Positions 11,351 through 24,162 of a stretch of DNA of 45,256 nucleotides are shown in pieces. How positions within the stretch are numbered: the first letter of the stretch is position 1; each line of letters starts with the position of its first letter. Under the pieces are notes generated by a model. That model did not search any database, was not told where the DNA came from, and was given only the letters and a program-made list of their open reading frames with translations. The DNA lies in assembly GCA_003250475.1 (NCBI GenBank), contig QKGI01000043.1, forward strand, positions 1 to 45,256. Reading direction: 5' to 3'. This DNA is from Bacteroidota bacterium (GTDB lineage: Bacteria > Bacteroidota > Bacteroidia > Bacteroidales > VadinHA17). The translations under genes were made by a program, and so were the position numbers.

Positions 11351-12778
11351 ATGTCTGACCGCAGGAGATTCATAAAGAACACAATGGTTGCCGGCGCAGC
11401 GCTCTCTGCAGGCCTGCCGGCTTTCTCCGCGGCGGCCGGGGAACAGTGGCCGTCAAGAAGGCCTGCACCGCGGGTGCGCAGGTTCCGAAGCAAGGCAGTG
11501 GAAGAGGCAATAAAAGAGGTAGAGTCATTCCTGGGTAAAAACGAGCTCTCATGGCTCTTTGCCAATTGTTTTCCCAATACTCTCGATACAACCGTCAGCC
11601 TTACTGAAAAGGATGGCAAACCCGACACTTTTGTCATTACCGGTGATATCAATGCCATGTGGCTCAGGGATTCAACCGCACAGGTATGGCCCTATATATC
11701 ACTTACTGCAGGAGACCCGGGCCTCAGGGACCTGATTGCCGGGGTGATAAACAGGCAGGTCAGGTGTATTCATATCGATCCCTATGCCAATGCCTTCAAT
11801 GACGGTCCCGGGCAGAGTGAATGGATGAGCGACCTCACCGACATGAAGCCTGAGCTGCATGAACGTAAGTGGGAGATAGATTCGCTTTGCTATCCCGTCA
11901 GGCTGGCTCACGGCTACTGGAAGGCCACGGGTGACACCTCTGTCTTTGATGCCGGATGGATGTCGGCAATGAGACTTGTCATTAAGACCTTCAGGGAGCA
12001 ACAGCGAAAGGAAGACCGGGGACCATATCATTTTCAGAGGGTGACCGGGTGGCAGACCGACACCGTTGCGGGAGGAGGATATGGCAATCCGGTTAATCCG
12101 GTAGGACTGATCGTCTCTATCTTCCGGCCTTCGGATGATGCAACCATCTGGCCCTTCCTGGTGCCGTCAAACTACTTTGCCGTCATGTCTCTCCGTCAGA
12201 TAGCAGAGATAGCAACGACGGTTTACGGTGATGTGAAGATGGCTGCTGATGCCACCTCCCTTGCCGATGAGGTCGATGCGGCACTGGCAGGATATGCAAG
12301 AGCCGTTCACCCGGAGCACGGGGAGATAATCCCCTATGAGACTGACGGATATTACAATTATAATTTCATGGATGATGCCAACGTGCCCAGCCTGCTGAGT
12401 ATGCCATACCTGGGCACCATTGATCGCAATGACCCGCTCTACAGGCGCACCAGGAGTTTCGTCCTCGGCAGGAGCAATCCTTATTATTTCTCGGGCATCG
12501 CCGGCCACGGGGTGGGAAGCCCCCATACCGGGATAAACCGCATATGGCCGATCTCAATCACTATGAGAGCCCTTACCGCGATAAGCGACTATGATATCGT
12601 TTCATCACTCAGGATGCTGAAGAACACACATGCCGGTACAGGCTTCATGCATGAGTCATTCATGAAAGATGACCCCACAAAATATACAAGGAAGTGGTTT
12701 GCCTGGGCAAACACATTATTTGGTGAACTGGTGCTGGAGACTTTCAGAACCAGGCCTGAATTGCTGAAAGAAATTTAA
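11351..12778 (+). CDS. GH125 exo-alpha-1,6-mannosidase, Tat exported
   Basis: A 475-residue metal-independent glycoside hydrolase family 125 protein. Family members release non-reducing-end alpha-1,6-linked mannose from N-glycan-type or yeast mannans. The N-terminus DRRRFIKNTMVAGAALSAG is a twin-arginine signal, so it is exported folded to the periplasm or outer surface. The motif MWLRDST (103-109, Asp107) and the late MHESF segment (Glu435) are strongly conserved family positions. They are likely substrate or catalytic carboxylates, though I assign them by resemblance. The ROK kinase gene follows after 11 bases. In this context mannose is the likely released sugar. Confidence 0.9.
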   Translation: MSDRRRFIKNTMVAGAALSAGLPAFSAAAGEQWPSRRPAPRVRRFRSKAVEEAIKEVESFLGKNELSWLFANCFPNTLDTTVSLTEKDGKPDTFVITGDINAMWLRDSTAQVWPYISLTAGDPGLRDLIAGVINRQVRCIHIDPYANAFNDGPGQSEWMSDLTDMKPELHERKWEIDSLCYPVRLAHGYWKATGDTSVFDAGWMSAMRLVIKTFREQQRKEDRGPYHFQRVTGWQTDTVAGGGYGNPVNPVGLIVSIFRPSDDATIWPFLVPSNYFAVMSLRQIAEIATTVYGDVKMAADATSLADEVDAALAGYARAVHPEHGEIIPYETDGYYNYNFMDDANVPSLLSMPYLGTIDRNDPLYRRTRSFVLGRSNPYYFSGIAGHGVGSPHTGINRIWPISITMRALTAISDYDIVSSLRMLKNTHAGTGFMHESFMKDDPTKYTRKWFAWANTLFGELVLETFRTRPELLKEI

Positions 12779-12789
12779 AAGGAGAAGAA

Positions 12790-13743
12790 ATGAAAGAAGT
12801 TGTAGCCGGAGTTGATATAGGAGGAACAAACACCATCATCGGACTCGTTGATGCCAGGGGAGAGATTCACGCTGAAGGCAGGCTCTCCACTCCCGAATAT
12901 GCGTTTGCTGACGACTTTGTCAAAGCCCTTGACCAGAAGCTTAAGGAGATGATCTCCCGTCACGATGACCTGAAGCTGACAGGTATAGGCATAGGGGCGC
13001 CAAACGCCAACTTCAACAAAGGCACCATCGAGCTGGCGCCCAACCTCAGGTGGAAGGGGATTATACCTCTCGTGAAACTTACCGAGCGGTGCACCGGACT
13101 GAAGACAAGGATAACCAACGATGCCAATGCTGCCGCCCTGGGAGAAATGATATTCGGAGAAGCAAAAGGGATCAAGCACTTTATTATTCTTACCCTGGGT
13201 ACAGGACTGGGTAGCGGTATCGTCGTTGACGGGGAGGTGGTCTACGGCCATACGGGCTTTGCCGGTGAACTGGGGCATATGACCGTTGCCGAGGGAGGAA
13301 GGGTCTGCGGCTGCGGCCGCCGCGGCTGCCTTGAGACCTATGCTTCCGCAACCGGACTGGTCCGTACTGTCCTGGCGCTTCTCAGCGACAGCCGCGAGGA
13401 GAGCGTGATGCGTGATCTCAAAAGCAGCGAAATCACCTCACGCAGAGTAGCCGAAGCCGCGGCGGCAGGCGATCCTGTAGCCATGGAAGCCATGGACAGG
13501 ACAGCTCATATGATCGCCCTTGGAATAGCCAACGCCGTTACCTTCTCAAGCCCCGAGGTAATCTACCTGTTCGGCGGACTGGCACTGGCAGGAGATGCCC
13601 TGTTCATACCGGTGAGAAAATATGCCGACGAACTTGTACAGCCTGTTTTCAGAGGAACATTCAGCATAATGCCGTCAGGACTGCCTGAAGCACAGGCAGC
13701 CATCCTGGGCGCCTCAGCACTGATCTGGAAAGAAGCAAAATAA
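12790..13743 (+). CDS. ROK-family sugar kinase (paralog 1)
   Basis: A 317-residue cytoplasmic ROK kinase, expected to phosphorylate a hexose such as glucose, mannose, glucosamine or N-acetylmannosamine at O6 using ATP. DIGGTNT at 9-15 is the phosphate loop. NDAN with Asp111 is the catalytic base region. The zinc-site set is ELGH at 160-163 and CGCGRRGC at 173-180. An AAGGAG Shine-Dalgarno-like run at 12779-12784 precedes the ATG, which is unusual for this phylum. It follows the mannosidase by 11 bases. No helix-turn-helix is present, so it is a kinase and not an NagC-type repressor. A second ROK gene (17721-18701) is a close paralog. Confidence 0.9.
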   Translation: MKEVVAGVDIGGTNTIIGLVDARGEIHAEGRLSTPEYAFADDFVKALDQKLKEMISRHDDLKLTGIGIGAPNANFNKGTIELAPNLRWKGIIPLVKLTERCTGLKTRITNDANAAALGEMIFGEAKGIKHFIILTLGTGLGSGIVVDGEVVYGHTGFAGELGHMTVAEGGRVCGCGRRGCLETYASATGLVRTVLALLSDSREESVMRDLKSSEITSRRVAEAAAAGDPVAMEAMDRTAHMIALGIANAVTFSSPEVIYLFGGLALAGDALFIPVRKYADELVQPVFRGTFSIMPSGLPEAQAAILGASALIWKEAK

Positions 13744-13822: not shown

Positions 13823-14476
13823 ATGCATACCATTGAGGTCAGCAAGCTTAGATCCGGCAGGGAGATCCCATCCATGGAGGAGGTCTCCGCACTGCTTGAC
13901 GAACAGGGAGACGGTCATCCCATCGAGACGATAAACTGGGAAAGTCACTTGTATAAACCTTCGGTAAGGTTCAATATGGCCTGGGGTGACCGGGAGATAT
14001 ATATCAAATATTATGTCAGGGAGGATCATGTAAAAGCGGAAAAAAGCCGTACCAACGAGATGGTCTGTGAGGACTCCTGTGTGGAATTTTTCGTTTCGCC
14101 ATCTGATGACGGTATATATTATAACTTTGAGTTTAACCCTATCGGCACCGGCCTGATGGGGGCTGGTCACGGGAGGGCCGACAGCGTCAGGGCTGACCCT
14201 GCTGTGGTTGAGGGCATCCGCAGGCTTACCTCGATGGGCGACAGGCCTTTTCCAGAGATAAGCGGTGATATCGGATGGTCACTTACCCTGGCTATCCCCC
14301 TTTCAGCATTTTTTCATCACCGGGTGGAAAACCTGGCCGGAAAAAGCTTCAGGGCCAACTTCTACAAGTGTGGCGACAGGCTGACTACTCCGCATTACGT
14401 GACGTGGAATCCTGTGGGTACAGAGAAGCCTGATTATCATCAGCCGGCCTTTTTCGGCATCCTGAAATTTATATAA
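13823..14476 (+). CDS. CBM9-like carbohydrate-binding protein without signal peptide
   Basis: A 217-residue protein resembling the 'carbohydrate-binding family 9-like' group. The recognisable pattern is a beta-sandwich with CVEFFVSPSDDGIYYNFEFN in the middle and a WNPVG segment near the C-terminus, where the family has its aromatic binding residues. It has no signal peptide, so it is apparently cytoplasmic, unlike enzyme-linked CBM9 modules. It may bind or sense an intracellular oligosaccharide, or be exported by an unrecognised route. It is the first gene after the promoter at 13746 and is followed by PFK after 21 bases. Confidence 0.75.
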   Translation: MHTIEVSKLRSGREIPSMEEVSALLDEQGDGHPIETINWESHLYKPSVRFNMAWGDREIYIKYYVREDHVKAEKSRTNEMVCEDSCVEFFVSPSDDGIYYNFEFNPIGTGLMGAGHGRADSVRADPAVVEGIRRLTSMGDRPFPEISGDIGWSLTLAIPLSAFFHHRVENLAGKSFRANFYKCGDRLTTPHYVTWNPVGTEKPDYHQPAFFGILKFI

Positions 14477-14497: not shown

Positions 14498-15703
14498 ATG
14501 ATAAAAGGCAATGCAGTCATCGGCCAGTCCGGCGGTCCGACATCTGTTATAAACTCCAGCCTGGCCGGAGTGGTTACCGCAGCCGGGACCTCGGACCTGA
14601 TATCGGGAATCTATGGGATGAACTACGGTATTGAGGGGCTCATGAACGAGTGGCTCTTCGATCTTGGCGCACAGCCTGATGACATTATCAGGGGCCTGCG
14701 CCATACTCCCTCTTCTGCTCTCGGTTCGTCACGCCACAAGCTGAAAGAGGAGGATTTCCCGCGGATCCTTTCCGTACTTGAGAAATATGACATCAGGTAT
14801 ATGTTCCTTATTGGCGGCAATGACACGATGGACACCATTCACAGGGTGGAGGCCTATTGCCGCAGTAAAGGATATGAGCTAACGGGAGTGGGTATACCCA
14901 AGACTGTTGACAATGATCTTTTCGGTACGGATCACACCCCGGGGTTTGCCTCGGCAGCCCGGTCAAATATACTCAACGTAATGCAGGCCGGCATACTGGC
15001 CCGCGACATGAAAAAGGTCGATCAGTTTGTGATATACCAGACCATCGGCCGTGATGCCGGCTGGCTTGCTGCAGCAACGGCGATGGCCAGGCGCGAAGAG
15101 GGAGACGCCCCCCACCTGATCTATACCCCCGAACATATCTTTGACAGGGACAGCTTCCTTGCCGACGTGGACCGGTGTATCAGGCGTCATGGCTGGGTGT
15201 CTGTGGTGTGTGGCGAAGGGGTGAAATATGCTGACGGAACCCCGGTCAGCGCCTCGGTGGTGAAAGATAAGTTCAGCAACACGGAGTTTGGTGCTATGGG
15301 AGGAGCCAGCGTGGCGGTAACTCTTCACGGCATGATCTCCTCGGAGTTCGGTATCAGAGGTGAGTTTCAGGTTCCGGAGTCGCTCATTATGAGCGATTTC
15401 GTCAGGGCGCTGCCCACAGATCTCGATGAAGCATGGCAGTGTGGCGTCGAGGCCGTACGGATGGCCGGGAGAGGCGAGACCGGGTACATGGTAACCATCG
15501 ACAGGATATCTGACGATCCTTATGAGATCCGCTATGGCAAGATACCCCTGGGAGAGGTTGCCATTGCCGCAAGACCTATGCCTGGTGAATATTTTAACGA
15601 AGCAGGAAACTTCGTCTCAGACGAATTCATTAGATATATGAAGCCCCTAACAGGTGAGCTTCCTGATTTTGTCAGGCTGAAAAAAGTGATGGTATTAAAA
15701 TAA
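14498..15703 (+). CDS. Diphosphate-dependent 6-phosphofructokinase
   Basis: A 401-residue cytoplasmic phosphofructokinase converting fructose 6-phosphate to fructose 1,6-bisphosphate. GQSGGPTSVIN at 9-19 is the N-terminal phosphate loop. GGNDTMDT at 106-113 carries an aspartate (Asp109) where ATP enzymes have glycine, the mark of PPi use. PKTVDND at 134-140 holds the lysine and catalytic aspartates. Length fits the long PPi-PFK clade. It sits between a carbohydrate-binding protein and a PIG-L deacetylase in the same operon, so it probably receives fructose 6-phosphate made by the SIS protein two genes on. A related sugar phosphate such as sedoheptulose 7-phosphate is a possible alternative substrate. 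Confidence 0.9.
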   Translation: MIKGNAVIGQSGGPTSVINSSLAGVVTAAGTSDLISGIYGMNYGIEGLMNEWLFDLGAQPDDIIRGLRHTPSSALGSSRHKLKEEDFPRILSVLEKYDIRYMFLIGGNDTMDTIHRVEAYCRSKGYELTGVGIPKTVDNDLFGTDHTPGFASAARSNILNVMQAGILARDMKKVDQFVIYQTIGRDAGWLAAATAMARREEGDAPHLIYTPEHIFDRDSFLADVDRCIRRHGWVSVVCGEGVKYADGTPVSASVVKDKFSNTEFGAMGGASVAVTLHGMISSEFGIRGEFQVPESLIMSDFVRALPTDLDEAWQCGVEAVRMAGRGETGYMVTIDRISDDPYEIRYGKIPLGEVAIAARPMPGEYFNEAGNFVSDEFIRYMKPLTGELPDFVRLKKVMVLK

Positions 15704-15714
15704 AACGAAATAAT

Positions 15715-16491
15715 ATGGCAACAGAATTCAACAGAGTAGCTCTCTCCATCAACGCTCATCCCGATGATGCAGAGGCATGGAATGCGGGGGTGCTGAAGCT
15801 CCTGCATGACAAAGGATACACAATTGTTATTGCCACCATGACCGGCGGTGACCTGGGCGGGTGCAACATGAGCATGGAGGAGACGGCCAGGGTGCGTTAT
15901 GTGGAAGCCAAAGCCGCAGCCTCGGTGCTTGACGCGGAATATTATTCCATGGGAGGCATTGACGGATCACTGTTTGATACTCCGGAGATGAGGCTGAAGG
16001 TTATCTCCCTGATGAGAAAGGTCCGTGCCGGCATAGTATTCACACACCTTCCCAACGACTATCATCCTGATCACAGGGCTACCGCTGCCATTGTTGAGGC
16101 AGCAGCCATGGTTGCCTCGCTTGACCCGGTACCAGTGCCCGAGAAGCCGCTTGAGGTAACACCCCTGCTCTATCATACGTCGCCGCTGACATTGAACGAC
16201 CCGCTGGGTTCACAGATAATACCCCCGCACTTCTTTGTCGACGTATCCGGCGTGGTGGAGACAAAGATCGAGATGCTCGGCAAGCACGTATCGCAGCTTG
16301 AGCTGATGAAACACATGCACAGGATTGATGATTTCTTCGGCTTTGTGCTGGAGGGTAACAAGAACTATGGCAGGATGGCCGGTGTGGAATATGCAGAAGT
16401 GTACTGGCAGCACCTCGGCGGAGGCTTCCAGAAAGATCCGCAGGTTCAGCGTGATCTCAGTGAATTCATCGTTAAACAACAACAGATCTGA
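15715..16491 (+). CDS. PIG-L/LmbE-family N-acetylglucosaminyl deacetylase
   Basis: A 258-residue zinc deacetylase of the PIG-L family. Members remove the acetyl group from GlcNAc units, as in MshB, BshB, PIG-L and the archaeal chitobiose deacetylase Dac. The AHPDDAE motif at 14-20 supplies zinc ligands and the general base. The second site HPDH is at 117-120. There is no signal peptide, so it acts in the cytoplasm. It is 11 bases after PFK and its stop is one base before the ATG of the SIS gene, a tight operon link. The pairing with a GlmS-like SIS isomerase and ROK kinases points to GlcNAc catabolism rather than bacillithiol synthesis, whose other genes are absent here. Confidence 0.9.
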   Translation: MATEFNRVALSINAHPDDAEAWNAGVLKLLHDKGYTIVIATMTGGDLGGCNMSMEETARVRYVEAKAAASVLDAEYYSMGGIDGSLFDTPEMRLKVISLMRKVRAGIVFTHLPNDYHPDHRATAAIVEAAAMVASLDPVPVPEKPLEVTPLLYHTSPLTLNDPLGSQIIPPHFFVDVSGVVETKIEMLGKHVSQLELMKHMHRIDDFFGFVLEGNKNYGRMAGVEYAEVYWQHLGGGFQKDPQVQRDLSEFIVKQQQI

Positions 16492-16492
16492 T

Positions 16493-17509
16493 ATGAATTT
16501 GAATGACAAGAAATACAATAGATTCGCGCTGGTTCGCGAGATGATGGAGACACCCGGAATAATGAGCTCATTCCGGCCCGAGGTCTCCATACCCTTTATC
16601 CCCGCTTTCAAATCAAAAAAAGGACTCTTCCTTACGGGGGAGGGTAGCAGCAGGCTCTTTCCGGCAAAGAGGGCCATATTCTCATCGCTGAAGAAGGATT
16701 TTCTCCTTCCCGTGCTGACAGAGGGCTGTACGCAGGCGCTAGAATACAACCTGGATGATTTTGTCGTCTTTGCAGCCTCGAACTCAGGACAGACCAAGGA
16801 GGTGATACGCCTGGTAAAAGCACTGAAAGAGAAAAAGCATGATACCGTTTATGGTCTCACCGCAAATGAAGGGACCATGCTCGGGGAGTATGCCGATGCG
16901 GTTCATGTACTCAAGTGTGGCAGGGAAAATGCAGTGGCAGCCACAAAATCGGTAGTGGAGCAGGCCCTGTTTTATGATTCGCTGATGCGTAACCTGAGGG
17001 CGGAGAAGATGTCGGGACTGAAAAAAGCAGCCGGCCAGATGGAACAGGTGATGACGGCCCCGATAGACAGCAGTATTACAGATATGATACGCAACGCGGA
17101 TATGATATATTTTGCAGGTCGTGATAACGGTGTTGCGGCAGAGCTCGCCCTGAAGACAAATGAGATCACCAGGAAAAAATCGGCATTCCTCGAAGGCACC
17201 TTCGCCCTTCACGGCATAGAGGAGGTGATGAACAAGAATGAGGTCCTGGTCTGGGTTGACCCTTTTGAATATGACCATGACAAGTTTATGGAGTGCATCG
17301 TCAGGGGCGCAGAGGTTAATGTGATAACCATAGCCAGGGAGAAAACAATATTTCCCACCATAGTCATACCGGACGGCGGAGAATATGCCGAATACCTGCA
17401 GCTGGCTGCCGGATGGAATATCCTGGTAGAGACGGGCATCGCCCTGGGGATTGATCTTGATCATCCTAAGAGAGCAAGGAAAGTCGGGAATGAATATGTC
17501 CCATCCTGA
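16493..17509 (+). CDS. SIS-domain isomerase/deaminase, GlmS C-terminal/GlmD-like
   Basis: A 338-residue protein with two SIS domains and no glutaminase domain. The first SIS phosphosugar loop is SNSGQT at 96-101. The C-terminus DLDHPKRARKV resembles the closing segment of glucosamine-6-phosphate synthase, where the family has a DxDxPR pattern. The likely reaction is glucosamine 6-phosphate to fructose 6-phosphate plus ammonia, as for archaeal GlmD; a fructosamine-6-P deglycase or AgaS-type activity is possible. I chose the ATG at 16493 because the open frame before it overlaps the deacetylase, whereas this start is coupled to that stop. It lies directly behind PFK and PIG-L. Confidence 0.85.
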   Translation: MNLNDKKYNRFALVREMMETPGIMSSFRPEVSIPFIPAFKSKKGLFLTGEGSSRLFPAKRAIFSSLKKDFLLPVLTEGCTQALEYNLDDFVVFAASNSGQTKEVIRLVKALKEKKHDTVYGLTANEGTMLGEYADAVHVLKCGRENAVAATKSVVEQALFYDSLMRNLRAEKMSGLKKAAGQMEQVMTAPIDSSITDMIRNADMIYFAGRDNGVAAELALKTNEITRKKSAFLEGTFALHGIEEVMNKNEVLVWVDPFEYDHDKFMECIVRGAEVNVITIAREKTIFPTIVIPDGGEYAEYLQLAAGWNILVETGIALGIDLDHPKRARKVGNEYVPS

Positions 17510-17720
17510 GGTTTTCAGGCACCCCGGCCACGGGTGTAATTTATTTTCTTCGGTGTTATCTAAAACGTATATTTACGGTTAGTTTAACATTGTTTCTTAC
17601 AATGAAGCACCTGTATTTCCCGGGAGGGGGCCGGACCGGCGGGTTGTACGCAGCCGGGCACAAAAGAAATACCAACCCTCTTTCGGGTGTTCTGTCGCAC
17701 CTTGTTAACCGTGGGTTATT

Positions 17721-18701
17721 ATGATGAATAAGAAAAAAGTAGTCGTCGGTATAGATATCGGAGGTACCAATACGGTCTATGGTTTTATCGACCGGGAAGG
17801 CAATATCGTTACCGGGGATCAGATAATAACCACACACTATGATGAGCCCGAGGTCTTCGTTGCCGCTCTCTATGAGAAAATGATGATCACGGCATCCAGG
17901 CTCGGCAGTGAGCTTGAGATTCTTGGTTTTGGCATCGGCGCTCCCATGGGAAACATCAACAAGGGCACCATAGAATACCCTGCGGACCTGCCATGGAAAG
18001 GTATCATCCCGCTGGCAGATATCTTTGGAAAACACACCTCTCTGCCGGTTATCGTGACCAATGATGCCAACGCTGCAGCCGTGGGCGAGATGGTCTACGG
18101 CGGAGCTAAAGGGATGAGGAACTTCGTTGTGATAACCCTCGGGACAGGCCTGGGAAGCGGTCTTGTTGTAGACGGAAAGCTGGTTTACGGTCATGACGGC
18201 TTTGCAGGCGAGATAGGCCATACATCTATCAGGCCGGGGGTCTCCAACCGCGACTGCGGGTGCGGACGCAAGGGTTGCCTGGAGACCTATGTGTCATCTA
18301 CCGGTCTCAAACGTACGGTACTCAAGATCATGGCCGACAGGCTTGATGACAGTGAGCTCCGGCGCTTCAGCTTCGAGGAGCTGGATTCAAAGAAGATCTA
18401 TGAGGCAGCCCTCCGGGGTGACCCTATTGCCTGCGAGGCTTTTGAACATACCGGCGCCATGCTTGGCTTTAAGCTTGCAGATGTTGTTGCACATACAAAT
18501 CCCGAAGCAATCTTCCTCTTCGGAGGTCTGGCCCTGGCCAAGGATCTCATCTTTGAGCCGGCAAGAGAACATATGGAAAAGAACCTGCTCTATATATACC
18601 GTGACAAGGTGAAGCTTTTACCGTCGGAGCTCAGCACGCAAAACGCAGCGGTGCTGGGTGCCGGTTCACTCGTCTGGTCTGCCGCAGACCAGGAGCAGTA
18701 A
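17721..18701 (+). CDS. ROK-family sugar kinase (paralog 2)
   Basis: A 326-residue ROK kinase closely related to the one at 12790-13743. Both share GTIE(x)xxxLxWKGIIPL, TNDANAAA, LGTGLGSG and the zinc motifs. DIGGTNT is at 12-18, and the EIGH and CGCGRKGC motifs are intact. The two probably differ in sugar specificity. It follows the SIS gene by 211 bases, where no strong promoter is seen, and precedes a small membrane protein by 12 bases. ATG codons at 17721 and 17724 are both possible starts. Confidence 0.9.
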   Translation: MMNKKKVVVGIDIGGTNTVYGFIDREGNIVTGDQIITTHYDEPEVFVAALYEKMMITASRLGSELEILGFGIGAPMGNINKGTIEYPADLPWKGIIPLADIFGKHTSLPVIVTNDANAAAVGEMVYGGAKGMRNFVVITLGTGLGSGLVVDGKLVYGHDGFAGEIGHTSIRPGVSNRDCGCGRKGCLETYVSSTGLKRTVLKIMADRLDDSELRRFSFEELDSKKIYEAALRGDPIACEAFEHTGAMLGFKLADVVAHTNPEAIFLFGGLALAKDLIFEPAREHMEKNLLYIYRDKVKLLPSELSTQNAAVLGAGSLVWSAADQEQ

Positions 18702-18713
18702 AGAGTACAGTGC

Positions 18714-19106
18714 ATGAATAAATACAGTTTCCCGGAGATGATGAGCTATATCGTAGGCGCCCTTTTTGTGGTGATTGTCTTCTCCATTGCATATGCCTAT
18801 CTCAAACCACATAAGCTGCATCACACAAGACCTCTCTCAACACTGGCCCTCAAGGGCAGTTATATGCTCTATCTCATGGTCATGCTGATCATCATTTACC
18901 TTGCCAGCCTCAGGGGAGGAGGATTGAGCAATGTGTTCGACGGTCCTGAATTCTTTATTTTCCTGGTAGTGTTGTTTGTCCCCACAACAGGGATCCTGTC
19001 GCGGAAGATTACCCGCTTCAGCGGTAAAAGGGTACGATATAACCTGATCTTTACAATTGTAAACATATTGATGACAATAACAGTGCTATTGCTGTACAGA
19101 CTTTAG
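18714..19106 (+). CDS. Small membrane protein with about four transmembrane helices
   Basis: 130 residues, not recognised as a named family. Hydrophobic segments lie at about 10-29, 46-65, 79-96 and 108-128, with basic loops such as KPHKLHHTR and SRKITRFSGKRVR between them. The whole protein is membrane embedded. It starts 12 bases after the ROK kinase and is followed by an acyl-CoA synthetase gene after 60 bases. Its role cannot be inferred. Confidence 0.75.
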   Translation: MNKYSFPEMMSYIVGALFVVIVFSIAYAYLKPHKLHHTRPLSTLALKGSYMLYLMVMLIIIYLASLRGGGLSNVFDGPEFFIFLVVLFVPTTGILSRKITRFSGKRVRYNLIFTIVNILMTITVLLLYRL

Positions 19107-19166
19107 GCATACCTAATATCAGAAAAGATTACATTTGCTCCATAAAAACAGAAAAACTTCAAAGTG

Positions 19167-20819
19167 ATGATTAAGGAAAGATTTATCTCCTACGTGGAGG
19201 AGAGTATTAAAAAGAACTGGGATATTGAAGCACTATCGAATTACCGTGAGAAGGGATTCACCTACAGGGAGATTGCTGCAATAATGGTTAAACATCACAT
19301 TGCCTTCCGTGATTACGGCGTGCAGGAGGGGGATAAAATTGTGCTGCTTGGCAGGAACTCAGCCAACTGGTGCGCAATGTATCTCGCCGTGGTTACCTAT
19401 GGTGCGGTTGTCGTACCGGTTCTGCCTGACTTCAAGCCTGAAGACCTCCATAATATCATCAACCACTCAGATGCAAAGCTTCTGTATATAGACGATAAGA
19501 TATGGGAGCTCCTTGATCCGGAGAAGATCAGGGAGATACAGTGGGTCAAGAGCCTCGACACTTTCGAAATGATTATGAGCCGTTCTGAAAAGATGACGGG
19601 TATCTACAACTCCCTTGATGAAAACTTTGCAAAAGAATACCCGGACTTCAGTCCTGCCGACATTAAGTTCTCTGACATAGACAATGAAAAGCTGGCAGTG
19701 CTGAGTTATACTTCCGGCACCACCGGTTTTTCAAAAGGGGTAATGATACCGCACAGGAGCCTGGCAGCTAACATTAAGTATGCGCAGCACAATATGCCCC
19801 TGGAGCCCGGCGACCCTGTCGTCTCGTTTCTCCCGCTGGCGCATACTTACGGCTGTGCCTTTGAATTTCTGTTTCCTTTTACCTACGGGTGCCATATCAC
19901 AATACTGACAAAGACGCCGTCTCCCCAGGTACTCATCCAGGCCTTCAAGGAGATAAGGCCCAGGCTTATCCTTTCCGTTCCACTTGTTATCGAGAAGGTT
20001 TACAAAAAACAGCTTCTTCCTGTTATCAGCAAGCCTGCCATGAAAGTGCTTCTGAAGGTGCCCGGCATCAACAGGATCCTCTTCAGGAAGGTACGCGAGA
20101 AACTTGAAACAAGCTTCGGGGGACGCTTCAAGGAACTGGTGATAGGCGGCGCTGCTTTTAACGCTGATGCCGAGAAATTCTTCAGGAAGATAGGCATGCG
20201 TTTCGCCGTGGGCTATGGTATGACCGAGTGCGGACCCCTGATCAGCTACGACGGATGGAAAACGGCCCGGCTGGGGTCATGCGGCAAGGCCGTTGATGCC
20301 CTGGAGGTAAAGATCGATTCACCCGACCAGGAGAAGACCGTGGGAGAAATAATCCTTCGCGGTGACAGCGTGATGCTGGGGTATTACAAAAACGAGAAGG
20401 CCACCAGTGAGGTGATTGACGAAGACGGATGGATGCATACCGGCGACCTGGGTGTCATCGACAGGGACGGGTATATCTATATAAAAGGGAGGAGCAAGGA
20501 TATGCTTCTTGGCCCGTCAGGAAAGAATATCTATCCTGAGGAGATAGAATCCCTGATAAACAACTACAAATATGTCACCGAAGCCGTGGTCATCTCGGAG
20601 GATAATAAGCTTGTGGGACTCATTTACCCGGATCACGAGGCACTTAAGGCAGACAATATCAGTGATGACGGGCTTGCGGCTGTGCTTGACGGGATACGCA
20701 GGGAGGTGAACAACAGGGTACCTGAATATATGGCCGTGACCAAATTCAGGGTTCATCCCGAGGAGTTTGCCAAGACGCCAAAGAAAAGCATCAAGCGCTA
20801 CCTTTACATGAAAGAGTAA
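19167..20819 (+). CDS. Long-chain acyl-CoA synthetase (AMP-binding enzyme)
   Basis: About 550 residues. Activates a fatty acid to acyl-CoA through an acyl-AMP intermediate. SGTTGFSKG near 183-191 is the AMP-forming P-loop signature. YGMTECGP is the A5 motif. DGWMHTGDLG and YIKGRSKDM form A7/A8, and the terminal KTPKKSIKRY holds the A10 lysine. All are intact. The frame also opens with GTG at 19164; I prefer the adjacent ATG. It is followed by a strong terminator hairpin at 20834-20860. The fatty acid substrate is unknown. It is soluble or peripherally membrane bound, with no signal peptide. Confidence 0.92.
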   Translation: MIKERFISYVEESIKKNWDIEALSNYREKGFTYREIAAIMVKHHIAFRDYGVQEGDKIVLLGRNSANWCAMYLAVVTYGAVVVPVLPDFKPEDLHNIINHSDAKLLYIDDKIWELLDPEKIREIQWVKSLDTFEMIMSRSEKMTGIYNSLDENFAKEYPDFSPADIKFSDIDNEKLAVLSYTSGTTGFSKGVMIPHRSLAANIKYAQHNMPLEPGDPVVSFLPLAHTYGCAFEFLFPFTYGCHITILTKTPSPQVLIQAFKEIRPRLILSVPLVIEKVYKKQLLPVISKPAMKVLLKVPGINRILFRKVREKLETSFGGRFKELVIGGAAFNADAEKFFRKIGMRFAVGYGMTECGPLISYDGWKTARLGSCGKAVDALEVKIDSPDQEKTVGEIILRGDSVMLGYYKNEKATSEVIDEDGWMHTGDLGVIDRDGYIYIKGRSKDMLLGPSGKNIYPEEIESLINNYKYVTEAVVISEDNKLVGLIYPDHEALKADNISDDGLAAVLDGIRREVNNRVPEYMAVTKFRVHPEEFAKTPKKSIKRYLYMKE

Positions 20820-22701: not shown

Positions 22702-24162
22702 ATGACAGTAAGAAACAGACTTTATCCCTGCACACTTCTTGCAGGAGCGTTGCTTTTTTGTCTCTCACTGACGGCATCAGCCCAGGAGAGTGATGAGAGG
22801 TATGTGCCGGAGACGGATTCCCTGGTACTTGACAAACTGGAACAATGGCAGGATCTCAAGTTCGGGCTGCTGATGCATTGGGGGCCGTACAGCCAGTGGG
22901 GCATAGTTGAATCATGGTCAATATGCTCCGAGGATGAAGACTGGTGCCGCAGGAAGAACCCTGACTACGGGGAATATAAAAAGCAATATGAGGCGCTGAA
23001 GCTGAGCTTCAACCCGGTAGGGTTCGATCCGGTAAAATGGGCGGCAGCAGCCAGGGATGCCGGAATGAAATACATGATATTCACGACAAAACACCATGAT
23101 GGCTTTTCAATGTTTGACACCAGGCTGACAGACTACAGGATCACGGATGCGGAGTGCCCGTTCAGTGTTAATCCCCGGGCCAATGTGACCAGGGAGATAT
23201 TCAATGCCTTCCGTGAACAGGGACTATGGACCGGGGCTTACTTCTCAAAGCCTGACTGGCATAACGAGAACTACTGGTGGCCTAACTTCGCCACACCCGA
23301 CAGGAATGTAAATTACAGCATAAGAGACTACCCGGAACGGTGGGAAAAGTTTGTCGGGTTCACCCACGGACAGATCATGGAGCTCCTGGGGGGTGATTAC
23401 GGCCAGGTCGACATCCTGTGGCTCGACGGCGGATGGGTCCGTAAGATGACGGAAGAGGAGGAGCGGGGCTACCGTCAGTCTGCCGGTCATAAGTTTGTCA
23501 GGGTACAGAGCCAGGATATCCGCATGGATGAGCTGGTGGCAAAAGCAAGGGAGAAACAGCCGGGACTGATTGTTGTTGACAGGGCGGTCTACGGCAGGAA
23601 CCAGAACTATCTCACTCCTGAGAACAGGGTCCCGGAGAAAGCCCTCCCATACCCGTGGGAGTCATGCATCATCGCAGGAGGAGGATGGGCATGGGTGCCG
23701 AACCCCAGGTTCATGTCCGGGAGAGAGGCCGTACATTTGCTCATCGATATAGTTATCAAGGGAGGAAACCTTCTTCTGAATATCGGGCCGGCTCCCGACG
23801 GCACATGGCCGGAAGGAGCATATGCTCTCCTCAGGGATATAGGCAGATGGATGAGGGTCAACGGCGAAGCTATATACGGGACAAGGGCAATGGCTCCGTA
23901 TAAGGACGGCAAGGTGTGTATCAACAGGAAAGACGATGACACCTGGTACCTCTTTTATTTGGCTGATGAGGGAGAAGAGATGCCTTCAACTGTAACGATG
24001 AACGGGCTGACCCTGCCGGAAGGAGCAAAAGTGACCGTCCCCGGTACCGGGCAAAGCTGCTCGTGGAAGAACAGCGCAGGCTCATTCACTGTCTACCTGC
24101 CCCGGAAGGTGAGGCAAAACCCACCTTCTGACTATGCCTGGGTGATGAAGATAAGACTCTGA
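22702..24162 (+). CDS. GH29 alpha-L-fucosidase, secreted
   Basis: A 486-residue retaining fucosidase. Residues 1-28 are a signal peptide ending ASAQE, so it is exported to the periplasm or surface. Family signatures: GLLMHWGPYS at about 55-64, KHHDGF at 130-135 and VDILWLDGGW with the nucleophile Asp242. The acid/base residue of GH29 is variable and is not assigned. A C-terminal beta domain (about 390-486) follows the catalytic barrel. It releases fucose from glycans, matching the mannosidase in the same block. It is the last plus-strand gene of the block and converges with the LytTR regulator. Confidence 0.93.
   Translation: MTVRNRLYPCTLLAGALLFCLSLTASAQESDERYVPETDSLVLDKLEQWQDLKFGLLMHWGPYSQWGIVESWSICSEDEDWCRRKNPDYGEYKKQYEALKLSFNPVGFDPVKWAAAARDAGMKYMIFTTKHHDGFSMFDTRLTDYRITDAECPFSVNPRANVTREIFNAFREQGLWTGAYFSKPDWHNENYWWPNFATPDRNVNYSIRDYPERWEKFVGFTHGQIMELLGGDYGQVDILWLDGGWVRKMTEEEERGYRQSAGHKFVRVQSQDIRMDELVAKAREKQPGLIVVDRAVYGRNQNYLTPENRVPEKALPYPWESCIIAGGGWAWVPNPRFMSGREAVHLLIDIVIKGGNLLLNIGPAPDGTWPEGAYALLRDIGRWMRVNGEAIYGTRAMAPYKDGKVCINRKDDDTWYLFYLADEGEEMPSTVTMNGLTLPEGAKVTVPGTGQSCSWKNSAGSFTVYLPRKVRQNPPSDYAWVMKIRL

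Follow-up and report, generated by a model that had tools for sequence, protein, structure and literature searches.

A conserved operon with a PIG-L deacetylase and an unnamed SIS protein, probably feeding an acetylated amino sugar into glycolysis in Bacteroidota

What is a PIG-L deacetylase doing in a gene string between a phosphofructokinase and a SIS protein? The question is raised by a window of 45,256 nucleotides, the whole stretch of Bacteroidota DNA that was analysed. A first-pass annotation had recognised a PPi-dependent phosphofructokinase (PPi-PFK), a PIG-L deacetylase, a SIS protein and a ROK kinase, and had proposed, by inference, a 'distinct route' for N-acetylglucosamine (GlcNAc). 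Pfam and NCBIfam matches bear out all four gene identities (Table 1). PFK, PIG-L and SIS genes are in order and nearly abutting, as described, with gaps of 11 nt (PFK to PIG-L) and 1 nt (PIG-L to SIS); the module had been assigned to 15715-18701, and the PFK gene lies just outside that interval. The ROK gene does come next in order, but it does not abut the SIS gene: 211 nt separate the two, and a terminator-like hairpin (consensus match only) is found between them. The same string also has, upstream of these four genes, a second ROK gene, a gene for a CBM9_2 protein and a GH125 mannosidase gene, whose product has a twin-arginine-like leader when read by eye.

Table 1. Features of the gene string (window coordinates)
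Feature	Position	Strand	Basis
GH125 alpha-mannosidase	11351-12778	+	PF06824, 543 bits; cluster in 13/82 loci
ROK family sugar kinase 1 (ROK1)	12790-13743	+	PF00480, 211 bits
CBM9_2 protein	13823-14476	+	PF16011, 227 bits; cluster in 58/82 loci
PPi-dependent phosphofructokinase (PPi-PFK)	14498-15703	+	NF010675, 401 bits, above cut-off of 273
PIG-L family deacetylase, Dac-like	15715-16491	+	PF02585, 79.4 bits, cut-off 28.2
Double-SIS protein, unnamed subfamily, putative glucosamine-6-phosphate deaminase	16493-17509	+	PF01380
Terminator-like hairpin 3' of SIS gene	17519-17537	+	Consensus match only
ROK family sugar kinase 2 (ROK2)	17721-18701	+	PF00480, 196 bits

The source genome, an assembly of 168 contigs totalling 3.47 Mb with 97.8% completeness, has five PFK-family matches, one of which is the PPi-PFK of the operon. 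On the 3' side of ROK2, positions 18714-20819 hold a small membrane-like open reading frame and an AMP-dependent-ligase-like gene, both of which recur behind ROK2 in over 50 of the 82 loci. Further downstream on the same strand is a GH29 alpha-L-fucosidase gene (22702-24162), and GH29-like genes are present in 19/82 loci. Promoter-like matches between 9300 and 24500 number 31, about twofold the 15.8 (sd 4.2) of shuffled sequence.

Is the arrangement peculiar to one genome? A single-sequence search with the SIS protein (E<=1e-20) gave matches in 3 of 395 Bacteroidota genomes, the source genome included. Of 586 candidate stretches from a contig scan, 502 held up at a loose E<=1e-3. The best 80 of these 502 were used; by record titles they are from Bacteroidales and other Bacteroidota, one Chlorobiota and Spirochaetes. 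In the phylum of one genome titled Spirochaetes (G441), the SIS family profile matched 10 of 198 genomes at E<=1e-40. A plasmid search returned four records, all below 25% identity. Genes were clustered over 82 loci (L004-L085), and the PFK and PIG-L clusters are found in 64 and 59 of them, respectively. Much rarer are an MFS transporter cluster (6/82), an N-acetylhexosamine-kinase-like cluster (5/82) and a GH92-type cluster (4/82), identified from one tested member (L059). Upstream sequence of 2.2 kb or more is available for 70 loci, and in 53 of these PFK, PIG-L and SIS are consecutive, the other orders being PFK without PIG-L (7), PIG-L without PFK (2) and neither gene (8). L031 was dropped from the comparison of gene order for want of a SIS call. 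When the SIS sequences are grouped by single linkage at 70% identity, 8 of the 12 resulting clusters include loci with the three-gene order, and together these two counts place it beyond chance. A ROK gene lies immediately downstream of SIS in 65/81 loci. The operon is real and conserved.

What might it do? Gene content, order and conservation are observed directly; the substrate of each enzyme is what we infer. To judge from the sequences, its role very likely lies in amino-sugar catabolism, and it probably channels an acetylated amino sugar, for example GlcNAc, into glycolysis. We put at about 0.7 the probability that the operon degrades an N-acetylated amino sugar inside the cell, with GlcNAc released from glycoconjugates as the likeliest substrate, by the following steps. 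The PIG-L enzyme would take the acetyl group off the amino sugar and a ROK kinase would add the 6-phosphate, in either order; the SIS protein would then deaminate and isomerise glucosamine-6-phosphate (GlcN-6-P) to fructose-6-phosphate and ammonia, and a dedicated PPi-PFK would convert fructose-6-phosphate to fructose-1,6-bisphosphate. Conserved order and motifs uphold the earlier notion of an amino-sugar operon that joins a deacetylase to a glutaminase-less, GlmS/NagB-II-like SIS protein. Against the proposed scheme, the enzymes of the operon are all far from any assayed protein.

The deacetylase has the motifs AHPDD and HPDH, and its metal-motif residues H15, D17, D18, H117 and H120 are invariant in 17 sequences, as befits a PIG-L/LmbE protein. 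An obvious signal peptide is absent, and the structure is predicted with a pLDDT of 90. A profile of the 17 sequences matches best the Pyrococcus diacetylchitobiose deacetylases (Dac; 2e-25 to 7e-22), with LmbE/BshB second (1e-21 to 2e-20), and a Foldseek search with the predicted model agrees in putting Dac ahead of LmbE/BshB. VIA Z scores for the same model are a tie, 27.5 for BshB and 26.8 for Dac. By profile the protein is nearest to the diacetylchitobiose deacetylases, and a putative Dac-type activity is offered as a lead only.

The SIS protein has 338 residues, counted from an ATG at 16493, and PF01380 is its only Pfam domain; the predicted structure has a pLDDT of 90.6. It falls outside the GlmD and NagB-II models as curated, with 25.6 bits against a cut-off of 580 for GlmD (NF041128) and 43.4 bits against 430 for NagB-II (NF046059). 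It is also far below the cut-off of the curated GlmS model, and Pfam finds no N-terminal glutaminase domain. The top PDB matches of the SIS profile are NagB-II (5e-11), a GlmS-type chain (8e-11) and Pyrococcus furiosus GlmD (1.7e-10), and no chain named AgaS or FrlB is among its 20 PDB matches at E<=0.001; identity to any solved relative is about 20%. Foldseek with the SIS model places GlmD first (2.2e-17). VIA Z scores are 34.6 for the GlmS isomerase domain (rmsd 2.5, 321 aligned), 33.2 for GlmD, 31.7 for AgaS, 29.9 for NagB-II and 25.3 for FrlB (8glr). The value for AgaS is close to those for GlmS and GlmD, and fold comparison therefore does not discriminate function.

Motifs are more telling. 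The family alignment with references locates ATK(S/A) at 150-153, LK..E at 220-224, HG at 240-241 and a C-terminal lysine, K330. In the SIS protein AVAATKS, LKTNE, HG and the lysine of C-terminal RK(V/I)GN agree with GlmS and NagB-II, and with all four features present the family belongs to the GlmS/NagB-II-like group. E. coli AgaS and FrlB (one sequence each) have neither ATK(S/A) nor the C-terminal lysine. With SIS as the only domain found by Pfam, and two motifs common to GlmS and NagB-II, the protein is rightly described as GlmS/NagB-II-like and without glutaminase. In a tree, the family forms one clade (support 100/99), and E. coli AgaS joins at 82/51 on saturated branches, AgaS and FrlB being at 10 changes per column; FrlB falls outside the family grouping in this same saturated tree. 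A proposed check against FrlB and AgaS was therefore answered in part: the motifs are unlike those of the E. coli proteins, but the saturated tree gave no placement. By sequence, the family is a separate unnamed clade, and the SIS protein likely acts as a glucosamine-6-phosphate deaminase. A separate 615-aa frame elsewhere in the source genome (contig C14) matches the same SIS model.

Does the deacetylase belong functionally with the SIS protein? The strongest argument comes from the spirochaete-group loci. A different PIG-L subfamily directly follows the PFK-SIS pair in L127, L129, L130 and L131, and in L128 it is divergent and nearby. The window PIG-L protein has no tblastn match in L127-L131 at E<=1e-6, and Pfam finds PIG-L in all three second-type loci tested (L127, L128 and L129). 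An aldose 1-epimerase gene adjoins the second-type loci L127, L129 and L130, and L130 has a GH20 gene. The same SIS-PFK pair thus occurs with two kinds of deacetylase, which argues for a link between deacetylation and the SIS step.

Which sugar, and from what source? The GH125, GH92 and GH29 genes suggest glycoproteins. One locus (L062) has a full GH20 gene and a sodium symporter gene, another (L083) a weak GH20 match and a third (L077) an N-sulphoglucosamine-sulphohydrolase-like sulfatase. Homologues of N-acetylhexosamine 1-kinase (NahK) are present in five clustered loci, and that of L062 matches PDB 4ocu, an N-acetylhexosamine 1-kinase, at 4.7e-80; the solved enzyme is presumably of B. longum type. 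These homologues point to a kinase acting on an acetylated sugar.

Is the source genome in need of another route? The first-pass annotation had called for a search for nagA and nagB, and such genes turned up. A nagA gene scores over cut-off (298 bits, contig C139). Contig C35 has a weaker nagA-like gene (195 bits) with GH20 close by and, at 111 bits and so below cut-off, a nagB-like one; a 776-aa frame is also nagB-like (87 bits). The simple idea that nagA or nagB is missing was rejected, and with these genes the organism is not forced into another route. The NagA gene on C139 (G000:C139:43500-47550, L094:5022-9045, other strand) is accompanied by a ROK gene, an MFS transporter and a SIS_2 protein (PRK02947). 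The C35 region (L095:3348-15394) holds GH20, an acyltransferase-like membrane protein, the NagA-like gene, a symporter-like gene, a second GH20-like gene and the NagB-like gene, which is divergent. In the 776-aa protein (L114:1459-3789, G000:C127), the NagB-like part is weak and AFNE reads AFNT; a PHHDD motif is present, and Pfam finds no PIG-L domain at E<=0.01. NagB matches of this kind recur in many genomes, in frames some 780 aa long.

Across genomes the picture is divided. Carriers of the locus (53 genomes, from 50 of the best 80 loci plus three; six titled Spirochaetes) were compared with 148 Bacteroidota genomes, three genomes being in both sets, by Fisher tests that ignore relatedness. 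NagB over cut-off is found in 9/53 carriers against 67/148 Bacteroidota (p 2e-4, the same without the three shared genomes), a depletion that fits replacement by the SIS protein. NagA over cut-off is enriched, with 27/53 against 20/148 (p 2e-7), which argues against a simple replacement of NagA. Seventeen of the 53 carriers are without a PIG-L orthologue, and no anticorrelation with NagA was found: NagA is in 24 of the 36 with an orthologue and in 12 of the 17 without (p 1). In the 148 Bacteroidota, a NagB-II search gave matches below cut-off only, and 54 genomes have a NagB match over cut-off inside a frame of at least 600 aa (e.g. L110:853-2772). The one such fusion-size frame that was tested has NagB and PIG-L domains by Pfam and adjoins a GH20 gene.

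Does deacetylation precede phosphorylation, as had been proposed? With nagA in the source genome and NagA presence independent of PIG-L, that claim is not supported. A scheme in which free GlcNAc or chitobiose is turned into glucosamine by the PIG-L enzyme and into GlcN-6-P by a ROK kinase, before the SIS step, is a tentative hypothesis at somewhat below even odds, and close to its kinase-first rival. It draws on the nearness of the deacetylase to Dac, on the aldose 1-epimerases at three second-type loci, which suggest a free sugar, and on nine carriers, most of them incomplete assemblies of unstated completeness, that have a PIG-L orthologue but neither a NagA match nor NagB over cut-off; the tie between BshB and Dac folds tells against it, as does the use of NahK homologues instead of ROK in five loci, their named relative acting on acetylated sugars. 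Those homologues favour the rival, in which the kinase would come first and give GlcNAc-6-P, with the PIG-L enzyme as a non-homologous stand-in for NagA and the SIS protein for NagB. Genomes with the NagB-PIG-L fusion-size frames lean the same way, having NagA over cut-off in 9/54 compared with 9/13 of those with stand-alone NagB only, and one such fusion has both domains beside GH20. The missing NagA anticorrelation among the 53 carriers weakens this rival, and the parts of the literature searched yielded no assayed PIG-L protein acting on GlcNAc-6-P; we regard kinase-first as possible, if rather doubtful.

Could the sugar be another one, such as GalNAc, with the SIS protein making tagatose-6-phosphate for a PFK paralogue to phosphorylate? 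A PFK that is one of five in its genome might have a special substrate, and the NahK relatives are named N-acetylhexosamine kinases, but SIS motifs unlike those of E. coli AgaS and a profile search that returned no AgaS-named chain (E<=0.001) make this unlikely. Could the PIG-L protein, placed here incidentally, deacetylate bacillithiol or another thiol-glycoside? Its best NCBIfam model is indeed BshB1 (TIGR04001), and it is the sole PIG-L match in the source genome at E<=1e-10. At 102.6 bits it nevertheless falls below the cut-off of 182.5, and no bshC match was found in the source genome or in 50/53 carriers. A bacillithiol role was rejected on these grounds, a deacetylase of BshB/MshB type being what the first-pass annotation had named as fatal to its scheme, and the wider thiol-glycoside reading is very improbable. 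Amino sugar breakdown, most likely of GlcNAc, thus stays the preferred reading.

How does the operon relate to known systems? Dac of Thermococcus is reported to deacetylate diacetylchitobiose (PMC4101496). The archaeal Dac/GlmD chitin pathway (Thermococcus, Pyrococcus) likewise pairs a PIG-L deacetylase with a SIS-type GlcN-6-P deaminase, putative in our case, and its enzymes are among the nearest PDB relatives of the operon's PIG-L and SIS proteins. The operon differs in being bacterial, in its SIS clade, in a ROK or NahK-type kinase and in the PPi-PFK. The NagB-PIG-L fusions of Bacteroidota (PRK02122 type) also couple a GlcN-6-P deaminase to a PIG-L domain; there the deaminase has the NagB fold and is fused, whereas the operon has a separate SIS protein. 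The NagK-NagA-NagB-II pathway shares a SIS-type deaminase giving fructose-6-phosphate, and a Sagittula SIS protein adjoins nagA; in the operon's cluster PIG-L replaces NagA, and the SIS protein scores 43 bits against the NagB-II cut-off of 430. In the parts of the literature searched, which include PMC5583593, PMC4101496 and PMC6409515 and few subscription journals, we found no published description of the gene set. According to PMC5583593, a single GlcNAc route had been described for gut bacteria, and non-orthologous pairs of deaminases and of kinases are known.

Many Bacteroidota may couple PIG-L to a deaminase, the latter being of two different folds. A bolder proposal, possible but speculative, is a bacterial deacetylate-first GlcNAc pathway in Bacteroidota and Spirochaetota, with a new subfamily of SIS GlcN-6-P deaminases, a dedicated PPi-PFK and unrelated PIG-L subfamilies that came to stand next to this one deaminase on at least two occasions. 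The cluster is a concrete candidate for another pair of deaminase and deacetylase. If this is true, genomes scored as amino-sugar-negative for lack of nagB might use the unnamed SIS family instead.
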